Source: Alphaproteobacteria bacterium (GTDB lineage Bacteria; Pseudomonadota; Alphaproteobacteria; UBA9219; RFNS01). Taken from it: a stretch of DNA of 64,000 bases. Under the pieces are notes generated by a model. That model was not told where the DNA came from and did not search any database. It was given only the letters and a program-made list of their open reading frames with translations. The stretch lies in NCBI GenBank assembly GCA_037200005.1, contig JBBCGY010000001.1, positions 953,812-1,017,811 on the forward strand. The letters are read 5' to 3'. How positions within the stretch are numbered: the first letter of the stretch is position 1; each line of letters opens with the position of its first letter. This document shows positions 1,254-7,197 of this stretch, piece by piece. The translations under genes and the position numbers were made by a program.

Positions 1254-1343
1254 TGGCGGAGGGGGAGGGATTCGAACCCTCGATGGACTTGCATCCATAA
1301 CGGTTTTCGAGACCGCCGCATTCAACCGCTCTGCCACCTCTCC
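1254..1343 (-). tRNA. tRNA-Ser (anticodon CGA)
   Basis: The minus strand reads GGAGAGG at the 5' end, a D-arm, an anticodon loop CTCGAAA (anticodon CGA) closed by GCGGT/ACCGT, a long class II variable arm, a T-arm with GGTTCGAATCC, the acceptor 3' strand CCCCTCC, discriminator G and an encoded CCA (1256-1254). One acceptor mismatch (A5-C68) is present. CGA decodes UCG. The 5' half, including the anticodon loop, lies inside a 44-bp repeat that also occurs at 7154-7197, so this gene is the target of the integrated island and its 5' half and promoter now belong to the island side. Confidence 0.93.
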
Positions 1344-1348
1344 GTGCC
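1305..1348. repeat. attL: 44-bp direct repeat copy 1 (tRNA-Ser 5' half)
   Basis: Identical over 44 nt to 7154-7197. It covers the anticodon stem-loop, D-arm and 5' acceptor strand of tRNA-Ser plus 5 nt of leader. Bases flanking the two copies differ, so the limits are sharp. A duplicated tRNA segment bounding recombinase relics is the normal mark of site-specific integration. Confidence 0.92.
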
Positions 1349-2217: not shown

Positions 2218-2488
2218 CTAGCCTAATTGGAGTTTAGGACGGCTTCTTATAACGGCCTTAAAAGCAGAGTCGAGCTTGGCGACGGCATCATTCTGCATGG
2301 TATCGACCACATGGGAATAGAGGTCAAGAGTTGTTGTGATCGTGCTATGCCCTAAGCGTTCTTGAGCAATTTTAGGGTGTATAGCAAAGCGAATCTTCTC
2401 CGGCAATTCATAGCCAAGCTTGCTAAAATAGGGCCGCAGCTCATTCGTGGCCGAGCGCAACCAGCTCTCGCGCGTCGTATGTTCTCAT
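2218..2488 (-). pseudogene. SprT-like N-terminus fused to integrase C-terminus
   Basis: Read on the minus strand, the frame begins EHTTRESWLRSATNELRP and continues to LPEKIRFAI, the usual N-terminus of phage-borne SprT-like metalloprotease genes. It then switches directly to HPKIAQERLGHSTITTT and LDLYSHVVDTMQ, the C-terminal helix of a tyrosine recombinase with the catalytic Tyr. The join lies near 2383. A ribosome binding site (AAGGAAAG) and ATG at 2488 precede it, but one extra base puts that ATG out of frame. This is a deletion chimera of two unrelated genes with a broken start, not a functional gene. Confidence 0.75.
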
Positions 2489-2864: not shown

Positions 2865-3353
2865 TTACGCCAGCCTCCATAAATCGATCATTTTCTCCAG
2901 TCCGCGATGCAGGGTTTGCAGCTTGTAAAAGCCTCCTGCCCATTCATCGTGGCCGCAAACGGCGATGATAAGAGCCTTCTGTGAGGCTGAAAGAACGCTA
3001 TATGCCTCGCGCAAAATTCTTTCGCTATAGATCGGTGTCAGGAATGCCATTTCGGGATCGCCGTGGGAACCGGAGTCTATATCCTCGACTCTGACTTTCA
3101 AGACCGCCCGCAGATAGGCATGGCGAAATTTCATTCCCGCCATATATTCGGTCTGGGTGAGAACGCCACGTTGAAAATAGGCGTCCAGGGCGCAATCAAT
3201 AGCGGCCTTGAATCGGAACATCATGGCTTCGCCGTGATTGTCACGGGCGATGACTTCTCTGGCTATGCCGCCGTTCCGGCGCTGGCGTTCTGGAGTGGAG
3301 GCGTCTCCGGTGAGAATGGCCGGAATCTTCTTTCTGCGCTTATACTTAGCCAT
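2865..3353 (-). CDS. Phage-type hypothetical protein (DUF6456-like)
   Basis: 162 aa from MAKYKRRKKIPAIL; this start has a strong GGGAGGAAT site 4 nt upstream, while the longer frame to 3443 has none. A basic N-terminus with ERQRRNGGIAREV is followed by a helical C-terminal half: LDAYFQRGVLTQTEYMAG, YSERILREAY and ALIIAVCGHDEWAG. That order (short inter-domain helix, AG-x-x-FR, then a VCG helix) resembles DUF6456-type proteins found in alphaproteobacterial prophages near regulators. It is transcribed divergently from the XRE regulator at 3533. DNA binding is possible but not shown. Confidence 0.6.
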   Translation of the reverse strand: MAKYKRRKKIPAILTGDASTPERQRRNGGIAREVIARDNHGEAMMFRFKAAIDCALDAYFQRGVLTQTEYMAGMKFRHAYLRAVLKVRVEDIDSGSHGDPEMAFLTPIYSERILREAYSVLSASQKALIIAVCGHDEWAGGFYKLQTLHRGLEKMIDLWRLA

Positions 3354-3410
3354 ATGATTCCTCCCGAAAATCGCCTTTGAAAACGGCCTTAATGTCAAAT
3401 ATTGTTTATC

Positions 3411-3439
3411 TAAATACCAAATAGTGGTAGTTATGTCAA
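3411..3439 (-). promoter_or_regulatory. Candidate promoter of the DUF6456-like gene, with repeats
   Basis: On the minus strand TTGACA (3439-3434) and TATTTA (3416-3411) are 17 nt apart. The -35 overlaps one of two direct repeats ATGTCAAAyATT (3392 and 3433, 41 bp apart). These repeats lie in the divergent gap before the XRE gene and are reasonable operator candidates for it. Inferred only from sequence. Confidence 0.35.
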
Positions 3440-3532
3440 ACATTATTGTACATTATGAGCAATATATTATTTACTTTCGGGCATTATGCTGTATAAAGGG
3501 GTATATTAATTGACGAAAGGCATGGTTTGAAA

Positions 3533-4204
3533 ATGATTACAGGACGGCAAATACGCGCCGCGCGCAGCCTGCTGGAATGGACGGCTGACGATCTTGCCAC
3601 CAAGACCGGCCTCACCCGCGCCACGGTAAGCAATATTGAGGCTGGTGCGGTGCAGCCTCATGAAAAGTCTCTCTCCGGCATTCTTGCCGCTTTCGATAAG
3701 CACGGCGTCGAATTTACGGAAGACGAAGGCGTGAAGCTGCGGAAACATCCGGTCAAGGTATTCAGCGGTAAATTAGGGTATCGGCAATTTCTCGATCACG
3801 TCTATGAAACCCTTAGCGAGGCAGGCGGGCGCATTCGCCAGTTCAATCTAAGCGATGCCAATAATCTGATTTTCGCCGATGATTACGGACAGGCGCACCT
3901 TATCCGCATGGCGACGGTCGATAACCTGGATGCCCGCGTTTTGACGGCGGAAGGCGATGCGACCTTCCCGGCCCCCTACTGCGAATATCGCTGGCTTAAC
4001 AAGGACGCCAAGACCCTAGCTCCGTTTTATCTCTATAACGATTATGTGGCCCTGCCGATGTATGAATCCAACAAGAGGGAATTGCTGGTTATCCGTTCCA
4101 AGCTTCTGGCGGAACGCTATTGCGCCCAGTTCGATCCGATTTGGGATAAGGCGATTATTCCGCCTAAGAAAATTGTAAGCAAAAAGACAAAAGGCTCATT
4201 CTGA
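3533..4204 (+). CDS. XRE-family transcriptional regulator with C-terminal sensor-like domain
   Basis: 223 aa. Residues 1-60 are an XRE helix-turn-helix (MITGRQIRAARSLLEW, then RATVSNIEAGAVQP as recognition helix). The C-terminal 150 residues (FLDHVYETLSEAGGRIRQF to LLAERYCAQFDPIWDKAI) resemble the small-molecule-sensing half of TrmB/PLD-fold regulators, an inference from pattern only. ATG at 3533 gives the canonical MITGRQIRAAR start; a TTG at 3527 is nearer to the AAAGG at 3516-3520 and may be used instead. The HNH gene begins 13 nt after the stop, so the two form one unit, like a controller gene with its nuclease. Confidence 0.8.
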   Translation: MITGRQIRAARSLLEWTADDLATKTGLTRATVSNIEAGAVQPHEKSLSGILAAFDKHGVEFTEDEGVKLRKHPVKVFSGKLGYRQFLDHVYETLSEAGGRIRQFNLSDANNLIFADDYGQAHLIRMATVDNLDARVLTAEGDATFPAPYCEYRWLNKDAKTLAPFYLYNDYVALPMYESNKRELLVIRSKLLAERYCAQFDPIWDKAIIPPKKIVSKKTKGSF

Positions 4205-4217
4205 TTGGACGATCACA

Positions 4218-5168
4218 TTGAATTTCCGCGACAAGCTTATCCTTAAGCGCGACCGCAAATTGCCTGCGGATTTGTTCGCGCCACGTTCCATCAAAGGAAC
4301 GGCGGAAATCGATCCCCGTTTCTTCGTCGATGGGCGCATACCGCTGTTGCTGCCCGATAAAGCGGCACTGCCCCGCCCGCTCTTTTCGGGCGGCGTGGAA
4401 AAAGACGGCGAAGGCGCTTTCGTCCGCCATGGCGCGGCCATCGATTTTGCGCTTCTAAACGATTTTCTGCCGTTCGTCGCCCGCCGGATGATCGTGCCGA
4501 TTCTCGGCGAACTCATTCCCATCACGTCGTGGGGATCGAGCCTTGCCAATCTCCTGACCAAGACGACCTGGAACGACTTGCGCCGCCAGACTTTCTCCAA
4601 AACCGGCTTTCGCTGCGAGATATGCGGGACGGCGGATAAGCTCGAATGTCATGAGCTTTGGGAATATTACGAGCCGCTGCCTGATTTTGTGGCGAAAGGA
4701 GCCTGCGGCTTACAACGCCTTGTGCGCATGATGGCGCTCTGCGACGAGTGCCACGAAACGCAGCATCTCGGTCTTGCGAATGTAAAAGGAAGGCTTTCAA
4801 TCGTCCAAGACCGCATTCGCGCCTATAACCGCTGGAATGCCGCGGAAATCGACCAATATTGCAATTTCATCAGCGCGCGCTGCGAGCGCCGCAGCGCATA
4901 TGGCTGGGTGCTGGATGTTTCCCGCGTTTCTCATGCGCGTTTGGTCGTTAGTAATAAGTGGAAATCGCAAGACAATGGCTTTCTGCTTGCCAATACCGGC
5001 AGCGGGCCATCCGAAACAATGATCCTCGGCGCTCCATGGCAGCGCGATGGCGTGTCTTATCCCGCCATATCCCCCTTGCTGGCGCATTTCGAGAATGCAG
5101 CGCCGCTCGCCGCCGAGTGGAAATATGTCGCGGGCTGTTTGTCGGGATCGGCGACGGTTTTTCGGTGA
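4218..5168 (+). CDS. HNH-type nuclease
   Basis: 316 aa, TTG start (no suitable ATG). The central part (about residues 130-195) contains a metal-binding treble-clef: CEIC, then ECHELWEYYE, then MALCDECHETQHLGLA. Two CxxC pairs plus ECHE/CHETQH give the His and Asn/His positions of an HNH endonuclease. The N-terminal 120 residues and C-terminal 120 residues have no family I recognise and probably determine target or partner. Directly preceded by an XRE regulator (13 nt gap). It could be a solitary restriction-like enzyme or homing-type nuclease; no methylase gene is nearby. Confidence 0.72.
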   Translation: MNFRDKLILKRDRKLPADLFAPRSIKGTAEIDPRFFVDGRIPLLLPDKAALPRPLFSGGVEKDGEGAFVRHGAAIDFALLNDFLPFVARRMIVPILGELIPITSWGSSLANLLTKTTWNDLRRQTFSKTGFRCEICGTADKLECHELWEYYEPLPDFVAKGACGLQRLVRMMALCDECHETQHLGLANVKGRLSIVQDRIRAYNRWNAAEIDQYCNFISARCERRSAYGWVLDVSRVSHARLVVSNKWKSQDNGFLLANTGSGPSETMILGAPWQRDGVSYPAISPLLAHFENAAPLAAEWKYVAGCLSGSATVFR

Positions 5169-5245
5169 AGCCGGATTATGTCTCCCCCATGTGCCGCCTG
5201 ACGGCAATCTGCATCTGGACATTTAATTACAAATAAAGTAATGTT

Positions 5246-5260
5246 ATGTTACACTAACAT
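5246..5260. promoter_or_regulatory. Perfect 15-bp inverted repeat, candidate operator
   Basis: ATGTTA-CAC-TAACAT lies in the 209-nt gap between the first HNH gene and the second XRE gene, 118 nt before the latter's ATG, in locally AT-rich DNA. The 6-3-6 symmetry suits a dimeric helix-turn-helix regulator such as the 140-aa XRE protein. Binding is inferred. Confidence 0.35.
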
Positions 5261-5377
5261 ACTGATTCACCTGGAAAATAAAAATGCGGCATTTGTTGCT
5301 TGGAACGCATGAGAAAACTTTGGTAATATCCAGCAGTCATTTCATTCTTTCAAATCGCTTGAGGATCAAACACTATT

Positions 5378-5800
5378 ATGAAAACCAAGATTCCAAAGAA
5401 CAAAATCAGGGAACTCGCTGACGAGCGCGGCATATCGGGCCGTGAACTTGCCAAAATGATCGGCACCTCCGCGCCGCATATGAGCCGCCTTGAAAAAGGC
5501 CAAACCCCCTTGACGATTGACTGGATTTTGAAGACCGCCAAGGCGCTCAAGGTCAATACGCATGAAATCATCGATCTGCCGCTTGATCGGAAATTCACCG
5601 GCAGTTGCGACGATGCCCTCCTTGGCTCGATCCTCGGCTGGCTTCTCGAAGCCGCCGACAAGCATAAGGTCAAGCTGTCCCCTAAAGACCTCTCCAAATG
5701 GGCCAGCTATGTCTACAAGGAAGCCGTTGATCAGCCGCTGAATTTTAAGGAGACGCGGTATTTGGCTTCTATCGTAGTAAGAATTCTTTCAAAGAAATAA
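5378..5800 (+). CDS. XRE-family transcriptional regulator (small)
   Basis: 140 aa. The N-terminal 60 residues form a Cro/CI helix-turn-helix: IRELADERGISGRELAKMIG, then PHMSRLEKGQTPLT as recognition helix. The remaining 80 residues are helical (LLGSILGWLLEAADKHKVKL, FKETRYLASIVVRIL) and look like a dimerisation region. It is followed 10 nt later by a second HNH protein, repeating the XRE + HNH arrangement found immediately upstream. Confidence 0.85.
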   Translation: MKTKIPKNKIRELADERGISGRELAKMIGTSAPHMSRLEKGQTPLTIDWILKTAKALKVNTHEIIDLPLDRKFTGSCDDALLGSILGWLLEAADKHKVKLSPKDLSKWASYVYKEAVDQPLNFKETRYLASIVVRILSKK

Positions 5801-5809
5801 GGATATTCC

Positions 5810-6355
5810 TTGTCACGGCGCACACCAGCGGATATCGCAAGACAGCTTCGCCGAGAAGCAGGGTTCGGCTGTTGTATTTGCGGTAACCCCATCTTCCAAT
5901 ATCATCATATCATTGAATGGAAAGATGATCAGCATCATCGGCCAGAAGACATGATGGTCTTATGTCCAAATCATCACGATCAGGCGACCAAGGGGGCAAT
6001 GACCGAAGCCGAGCAGCGGAAGTTCAAAGCCAGTCCCCGCAACATTCAAGATGGACTTGCAAAGGGACGATTAGCTGTTAGGCAGAATTATTGTGCCGCA
6101 AGCTTCGGATCAGTTACCGTTGTTGGCGAAGGGCCTTTCTTGCGGATGGCTGACGAAGACATAATCGAATTCTCTTTAGGAGAAGATGGAAACTTAGAGT
6201 TATCGATCAAGCTATATAGTGAAAATGATGACCTGCTATTGAAAATTGAAAGAAACGAGTGGACTTCCTGCTGCGTGAATGGTGGGGACGTGAGCACGAT
6301 TTTCGGCCTATTGCGAACCGATACAATCAAACTCGAGTTAAATTGGACGGACTAG
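5810..6355 (+). CDS. HNH endonuclease-like protein
   Basis: 181 aa, TTG start with AAGGAT 6 nt upstream. Residues 20-70 are a compact HNH motif: FGCCICGNPIFQYHHIIEW followed by MVLCPNHHDQATKG, i.e. CxxC, HH and CxxHH with the conserved N. The C-terminal half (from about 95) is a beta-rich domain (DGNLELSIKLYSENDDLLLKI) without known family. The layout, HNH first then an unknown domain, differs from the upstream HNH gene, so the two are not simple duplicates. Co-directional with, and 10 nt after, its own XRE regulator. Confidence 0.8.
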   Translation: MSRRTPADIARQLRREAGFGCCICGNPIFQYHHIIEWKDDQHHRPEDMMVLCPNHHDQATKGAMTEAEQRKFKASPRNIQDGLAKGRLAVRQNYCAASFGSVTVVGEGPFLRMADEDIIEFSLGEDGNLELSIKLYSENDDLLLKIERNEWTSCCVNGGDVSTIFGLLRTDTIKLELNWTD

Positions 6356-6486: not shown

Positions 6487-7008
6487 ATGCGTTTTGAAAC
6501 TTTTGGCCCATTTCCAATAGAATTAAACGAATACGGCAACCTTCCTCGCCGAATGCGTTCTTTCTGGAACGATATTGAGAAAGGCGACGAAGGATTAAGT
6601 CATGCGCGTGGTTGTTATGTATTCGGAATTAAATCCAGCGGAGGTCCTAGTATCTTTCCTTGGTATATAGGAAGAACCCACCTTCAAGGCTTCCGAAAAG
6701 AATGTTTCGGATCACACCAGCGATCTCTCTATTTAGAGGCAATTAATCGCTACGACAGAGCGGTTCCCTATTTATATATAGCTGCACAAATAACTATGCA
6801 GGATCGATTCTATCAGGGAAAAAGTGGCGCATCTATAGCATTCCTTGAGACTTATTTGATTAGCTTGGGGCTTCAAGTAAATAAGAACCTACTGAATAAA
6901 CAATCTACCAAAATGTACAGAGAAGTTATCATGCCTGGAATTTTAAATTCTAGCCTAGGGAATCCGGGCCGCCCAGCTATGGAATTGCGCCAAACTTTTA
7001 GATTCTAA
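6487..7008 (+). CDS. GIY-YIG-like nuclease domain protein
   Basis: 173 aa. GCYVF and PWYIGRT, 13 residues apart, match the GxY...YxG core of GIY-YIG nucleases; the Arg of YIGRT and a later FLETYLI (candidate metal-binding Glu) and VNKNLLNK (Asn) occur in the expected order. GGAGAG lies 9-14 nt before the ATG. Codon use is AT-rich (many ATA, AAT, TTA), unlike the host genes. It is the last gene before the right att region. Family assignment is by motif spacing and is tentative. Confidence 0.6.
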   Translation: MRFETFGPFPIELNEYGNLPRRMRSFWNDIEKGDEGLSHARGCYVFGIKSSGGPSIFPWYIGRTHLQGFRKECFGSHQRSLYLEAINRYDRAVPYLYIAAQITMQDRFYQGKSGASIAFLETYLISLGLQVNKNLLNKQSTKMYREVIMPGILNSSLGNPGRPAMELRQTFRF

Positions 7009-7153: not shown

Positions 7154-7197
7154 TTTCGAGACCGCCGCATTCAACCGCTCTGCCACCTCTCCGTGCC
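7154..7197. repeat. attR: 44-bp direct repeat copy 2 (orphan tRNA-Ser half)
   Basis: Exact copy of 1305-1348. No 3' tRNA half follows, so it cannot form a tRNA. It marks the right end of the island; sequence beyond 7197 is the original 5' flank of the tRNA gene. Confidence 0.92.

Follow-up and report, generated by a model that had tools for sequence, protein, structure and literature searches.

Integrative mobilizable elements (IMEs; PMC5704250) are the closest described counterparts of the locus analysed here, and their definition is matched by the elements that share the family of its 223-aa XRE regulator. The other described counterparts are nucleases, namely the phrog_5200 HNH endonucleases of phages and plasmids, the phrog_6544 HNH proteins of prophages and, more distantly, the effectors McrA and Cap5. 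We analysed a window of 64,000 nucleotides from an Alphaproteobacteria bacterium (GCA_037200005.1, contig JBBCGY010000001.1), in which an island carries two XRE regulators, each followed by an HNH protein. Like IMEs, this island has a tRNA-gene target, repeats that leave the tRNA intact, a tyrosine recombinase, a regulator and cargo, and its relatives in this bacterial order possess a MobA-like relaxase; it differs from them in that the window copy has no relaxase and little remains of its integrase. A first-pass annotation had read the two regulator-nuclease pairs as units of a possible new defence system. The account that we favour, with moderate confidence, is that the XREs are regulators of the element, not dedicated partners of the nucleases, and that the genes behind them are exchangeable cargo, in this case nucleases probably directed against incoming DNA.

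Results

A decayed integrative element in tRNA-Ser

The four genes belong to what is left of an integrative element that had inserted into a tRNA-Ser gene and has since decayed, in line with the decay proposed earlier. The integration target, tRNA-Ser (CGA), was located with ARAGORN at 1254..1343 on the minus strand. Its 5′ half is covered by the left attachment repeat at 1305..1348 (perfect over 44 bp, or 52 bp at 94%), and the right attachment repeat at 7154..7197 is a perfect 44-bp copy made up of the tRNA-Ser 5′ half and a few further bases; the island thereby displays site-specific integration at a target gene with flanking repeats. The GC content is 48% in the 5.8 kb between the repeats and 58% in the window sequence that follows on the right. 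No intact integrase is present in the island, and the sole trace of one is an 80-aa C-terminal remnant of a tyrosine recombinase (2218..2460, minus strand), which shares 51-54% identity with plasmid integrases along a stretch of about 50 aa, has no Pfam match and does not match the integrases of related mobilizable elements. The relaxase is likewise absent from the island, while present in related elements (L221-L225, L227 and L228). With these two losses, the island is no longer self-mobile.

Next to the remnant, and divergent from the first XRE, lies a 192-aa gene resembling phrog_31762 (2865..3443, minus strand; 1.2e-15), whose relatives were found within the same bacterial order. The window copy has its best matches, at 38-52%, among the copies found near relatives of the second XRE; its similarity to the copies in mobilizable elements is lower (about 24-36%), which indicates that the island is a mosaic. 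On the plus strand, the order XRE-HNH-XRE-HNH is as annotated, spanning 3533-6355: a 223-aa XRE (3533..4204), a 316-aa HNH protein with a TTG start (4218..5168), a 140-aa XRE (5378..5800) and a 181-aa HNH protein, also with a TTG start (5810..6355). The gaps between regulator and nuclease are short, as claimed, although they measure 13 nt and 9 nt rather than 10-13 nt. The claim that no methylase accompanies the nucleases also held among the island proteins scanned, so the methyltransferase of a restriction-modification system with an XRE control protein is missing. A 173-aa ORF of the same island (6487-7008) looks GIY-YIG-like by eye (GCYVF...WYIG); it has no Pfam match and one plasmid relative.

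The HNH genes are found as single genes on mobile DNA

Neither HNH protein is a duplicate of the other. Residues 98-241 of the 316-aa protein match phrog_5200 ('HNH endonuclease') at 1.2e-29, and the protein has no Pfam HNH match; C133, C136, H145, E146, C175, C178, H179 and H183 are invariant among its relatives. These relatives occur in 91 plasmid records and 234 phage records and are rare in chromosomes of the class (1/384); on Roseibium/Labrenzia plasmids, one lies between traA and traC. Taken together, the nine relatives offered no region of sufficient conservation for a profile search of viral contigs. Its N-terminus aligns with the region of one relative (L002) that matches Pfam DUF5710 at 1.9e-15, without a Pfam match of its own. 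The predicted structure had a mean pLDDT of 43 and was set aside. The 181-aa protein matches Pfam HNH (2.3e-4) by a narrow margin over the curated cut-off, and phrog_6544 at 2e-32; its relatives are mostly prophage genes, the nearest of which is 44% identical, and among them C21, C24, H33 and C52 are invariant and H56 nearly so. Its model (pLDDT 76) consists of an HNH fold and a beta-rich C-terminal part. In both proteins the zinc cysteines and HNH histidines that characterize the HNH endonuclease superfamily are conserved, and the nuclease motifs are intact.

The association of these nucleases with mobile DNA was confirmed by their relatives on plasmids, phages and prophages; their pairing with an XRE was not. 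An XRE lay directly upstream in none of the 16 loci read for the 316-aa family. For the 181-aa family, a single XRE-like gene, recognised by eye and 443 nt away, was seen among about 77 prophage relatives with a visible upstream gene, and in one plasmid locus (L013) the XRE is 157 nt upstream and adjoins a RelE/ParE toxin gene. Across plasmids, prophages and several hundred genomes of near kin, of the class or of the phylum, we found no pairing of XRE and HNH genes, and in the order itself neither HNH family turned up outside this genome. The earlier reading had named a lack of co-occurrence with XRE genes as grounds for giving up the pair as a unit, and such a lack is what both HNH families present. 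Judged by their neighbourhoods, both families are single cargo genes of mobile elements.

If XRE and HNH formed a dedicated two-gene defence system that occurs twice in the island, this would account for two different pairs having the same layout side by side, and for HNH motifs kept intact with no methylase nearby. However, XREs are missing upstream of the HNH relatives, the HNH genes are missing from the rest of the order, and the regulators carry other cargo elsewhere; the neighbourhoods mostly refute this reading, which we regard as very improbable. In PADLOC, neither HNH set matched any family at 1e-3 (the best match in a first scan, at 0.0012, was to an McrA-type model), and we found nothing in the literature describing XRE-HNH pairs or a DUF5710-HNH arrangement.

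The same scattering, with no constant neighbour on plasmids, phages or prophages, is also what would be seen if the HNH genes were silent passengers, that is, free-standing, homing-like or fortuitous cargo brought behind the XREs by chance recombination and devoid of a regulated defence role. The decay of the island fits this explanation, as does the length of the 181-aa protein, which is shorter than all 64 of the 64 distinct prophage relatives and whose alignment to them ends after residue 160. A frameshifted C-terminus was considered for this protein and rejected, as no frame aligned. Against silent passengers, both HNH ORFs are open, their HNH residues are intact and the gaps to the XREs are very short. 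We consider this explanation unlikely, and rank it first among the rivals, ahead of toxin-antitoxin pairs and then of the dedicated two-gene system.

The first regulator belongs to a family of mobilizable elements

Both XREs match HTH_3 (4.6e-8 for the 223-aa and 8e-8 for the 140-aa protein). Full-length relatives of the 223-aa XRE were found in each of the 32 other genomes of the order that were searched; these small genomes contain as many as 30 matches each (P0001 family; loci L142-L161 and L168-L207). Elsewhere in the class matches were few and mostly weak, and those on plasmids cover the HTH part only; the full-length family is nearly confined to this bacterial order. We examined 60 of these neighbourhoods by longest-ORF gene calling, which makes the following counts approximate: a co-directional gene follows within 60 nt of 45/62 XREs of the 223-aa type, compared with 92/264 other genes at the same loci (p 1.2e-7). 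This significant coupling to the downstream gene again speaks against silent passengers.

Among the closest relatives (45% identity or more; counts include the window), 11 of the 14 with a visible downstream gene have a gene of about 425 aa directly behind the XRE, and 10/17 have a phrog_31762-like gene divergently upstream. In the window, the slot usually taken by the ∼425-aa gene is occupied by the 316-aa HNH protein. The divergent operon of the related elements runs on into a relaxase of the MobA/VirD2 type (Pfam 4.9e-21 for the L143 copy), and tRNA genes for Asn, Thr and Pro adjoin their integrase genes, of which two are backed by Pfam; tRNA genes for Val, Gly and Glu also lie beside elements of this family. 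The layout of these elements is thus a relaxase operon on one side of a divergent promoter and, on the other, the XRE with one cargo gene, and in the window island both the XRE and the phrog_31762-like gene have survived. The type to which the 223-aa XRE belongs serves as the backbone regulator in a family of integrative mobilizable elements of this order. No clear shared operator was seen in the divergent promoters of its relatives.

Several other genes of these elements deserve mention. The ∼425-aa family (L143, L148, L150, L151, L168-L171 and L173-L175) is without a Pfam match, and parts of it look acetyltransferase-like by eye. Behind more distant paralogues of the 223-aa XRE, the commonest downstream gene encodes Methyltransf_33, a histidine-specific methyltransferase (15/58); we came across no description of this arrangement in literature that was read without a dedicated search for it. 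A related mobilizable element (L223; G014:C11:1-20000) encodes a type II methyltransferase, a restriction enzyme and a PDC-S06-type ATPase (PADLOC 1.7e-201), and ORFs of 322-330 aa beside the relaxase in L221, L222 and L224 are ArdC-type antirestriction-like by eye.

The second regulator occurs with two different downstream genes

Relatives of the 140-aa XRE also lie within this order. At L152, L156 and L157, the three loci inspected for this purpose, phage-like replication genes are oriented divergently to them. The protein resembles a prophage repressor. Of the 11 best loci in other genomes, 7 have a phrog_31762-like gene at a distance of no more than about 5 kb, and none of nine relatives inspected in other genomes, one of them at a contig edge, is closely followed (within 60 nt) by a co-directional gene.

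A second XRE of the 140-aa type is present in the same genome (C1:39361-39771), and the two copies are 97% identical over the 618 bp compared. They share a block of 505 bp that is 100% identical (5149..5653 in the window) and comprises the last 20 nt of the 316-aa HNH gene, the promoter and 92 XRE codons; from codon 93 onwards, the remaining 113 bp are 82% identical. The gene behind the second copy does not encode an HNH protein. It encodes a TIR-like protein of 422 aa (L142:5040-6308), with a weak likeness to the CAP12 TIR domain that falls below threshold (Pfam 0.033). Relatives of this protein were found on 68 plasmids, some annotated as 'nucleotide-binding protein' and one beside an AbiEi/AbiEii pair. 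A pattern search identified a perfect 17-bp palindrome, TATGTTACACTAACATA, at 5245..5261 as a candidate operator of the second XRE. Within the part of the genome searched, the pattern occurs only upstream of these two XRE copies, which are recent duplicates and hence count as one independent occurrence.

These two copies bear on whether each XRE could be the antitoxin of the nuclease behind it, binding and silencing an HNH toxin that would damage DNA upon loss of the XRE and so stabilise the island. The XREs lie directly upstream at short distances, their domains are weakly similar to antitoxins of the HipB/HigA type, the genes have been retained on a decayed island, and the two copies of the second XRE differ in their C-terminal third, as they do in the downstream gene. 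That C-terminal part nevertheless remains similar although the downstream genes are unrelated, and in relatives the XREs occur alone or with other partners. Moreover, the conserved two-gene pairing across genomes that typifies type II toxin-antitoxin systems was found for neither HNH gene. We thus hold a toxin-antitoxin role to be improbable.

The swap also suggests a bolder version of the exchangeable-cargo account, in which a constant small XRE with its candidate palindromic operator anchors a cassette, and recombination inside the XRE gene swaps the effector, an HNH nuclease in the island and a TIR-like protein elsewhere in the same genome, which would give integrative elements a defence slot dosed by the repressor. 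As this swap is a single case, from one pair of copies in one genome, we put the cassette forward tentatively and think it rather unlikely.

Discussion

Since the regulators belong to mobile elements and the enzymes are interchangeable cargo, the window genes probably do not constitute one new two-gene defence system. According to the account that we favour, the position immediately after each regulator would have acquired an HNH gene by capture, and the gene in this slot would be co-transcribed with the regulator for as long as the element is integrated. The HNH proteins may cut incoming foreign DNA, whether of a phage or of a rival element, and would then serve in defence or competition; placed in this slot, such a nuclease would have its dose set by the regulator of the element. 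Co-transcription, nuclease activity and a role in defence or competition are predictions of this account. Weighing against it are the lack of a PADLOC match for either HNH family, the single instance of the swap, the missing close downstream gene behind relatives of the second XRE in other genomes, and the weakness of the structural match.

The idea of two unknown XRE-HNH systems is thereby replaced by a more general one, in which, within this order, the position immediately after an integrative element's regulator is a slot for cargo. This slot can be used to search for uncatalogued effectors, including the two HNH families and the TIR-like family that are missing from PADLOC. It also calls for caution, in that relatives should be checked before neighbouring regulator and nuclease genes are named a system.

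Compared with described nucleases, the 181-aa protein bears a weak likeness to the McrA and Cap5 effectors through the HNH part of its model (best Foldseek E 0.024, TM about 0.3). It differs from them in showing no sensor domain of the SRA or SAVED type, and neither a cyclase nor a modification-reading part lies beside it. With the phrog_6544 proteins of prophages it shares the combination of an HNH part and a beta-rich C-terminal part, but its C-terminus is shorter, and an XRE that its prophage relatives lack is located 9 nt upstream. The 316-aa protein has the same Cys/His set as the phrog_5200 HNH endonucleases; it differs from them in an additional N-terminal part, DUF5710-like by alignment only, and in its position behind the XRE of an integrative element.
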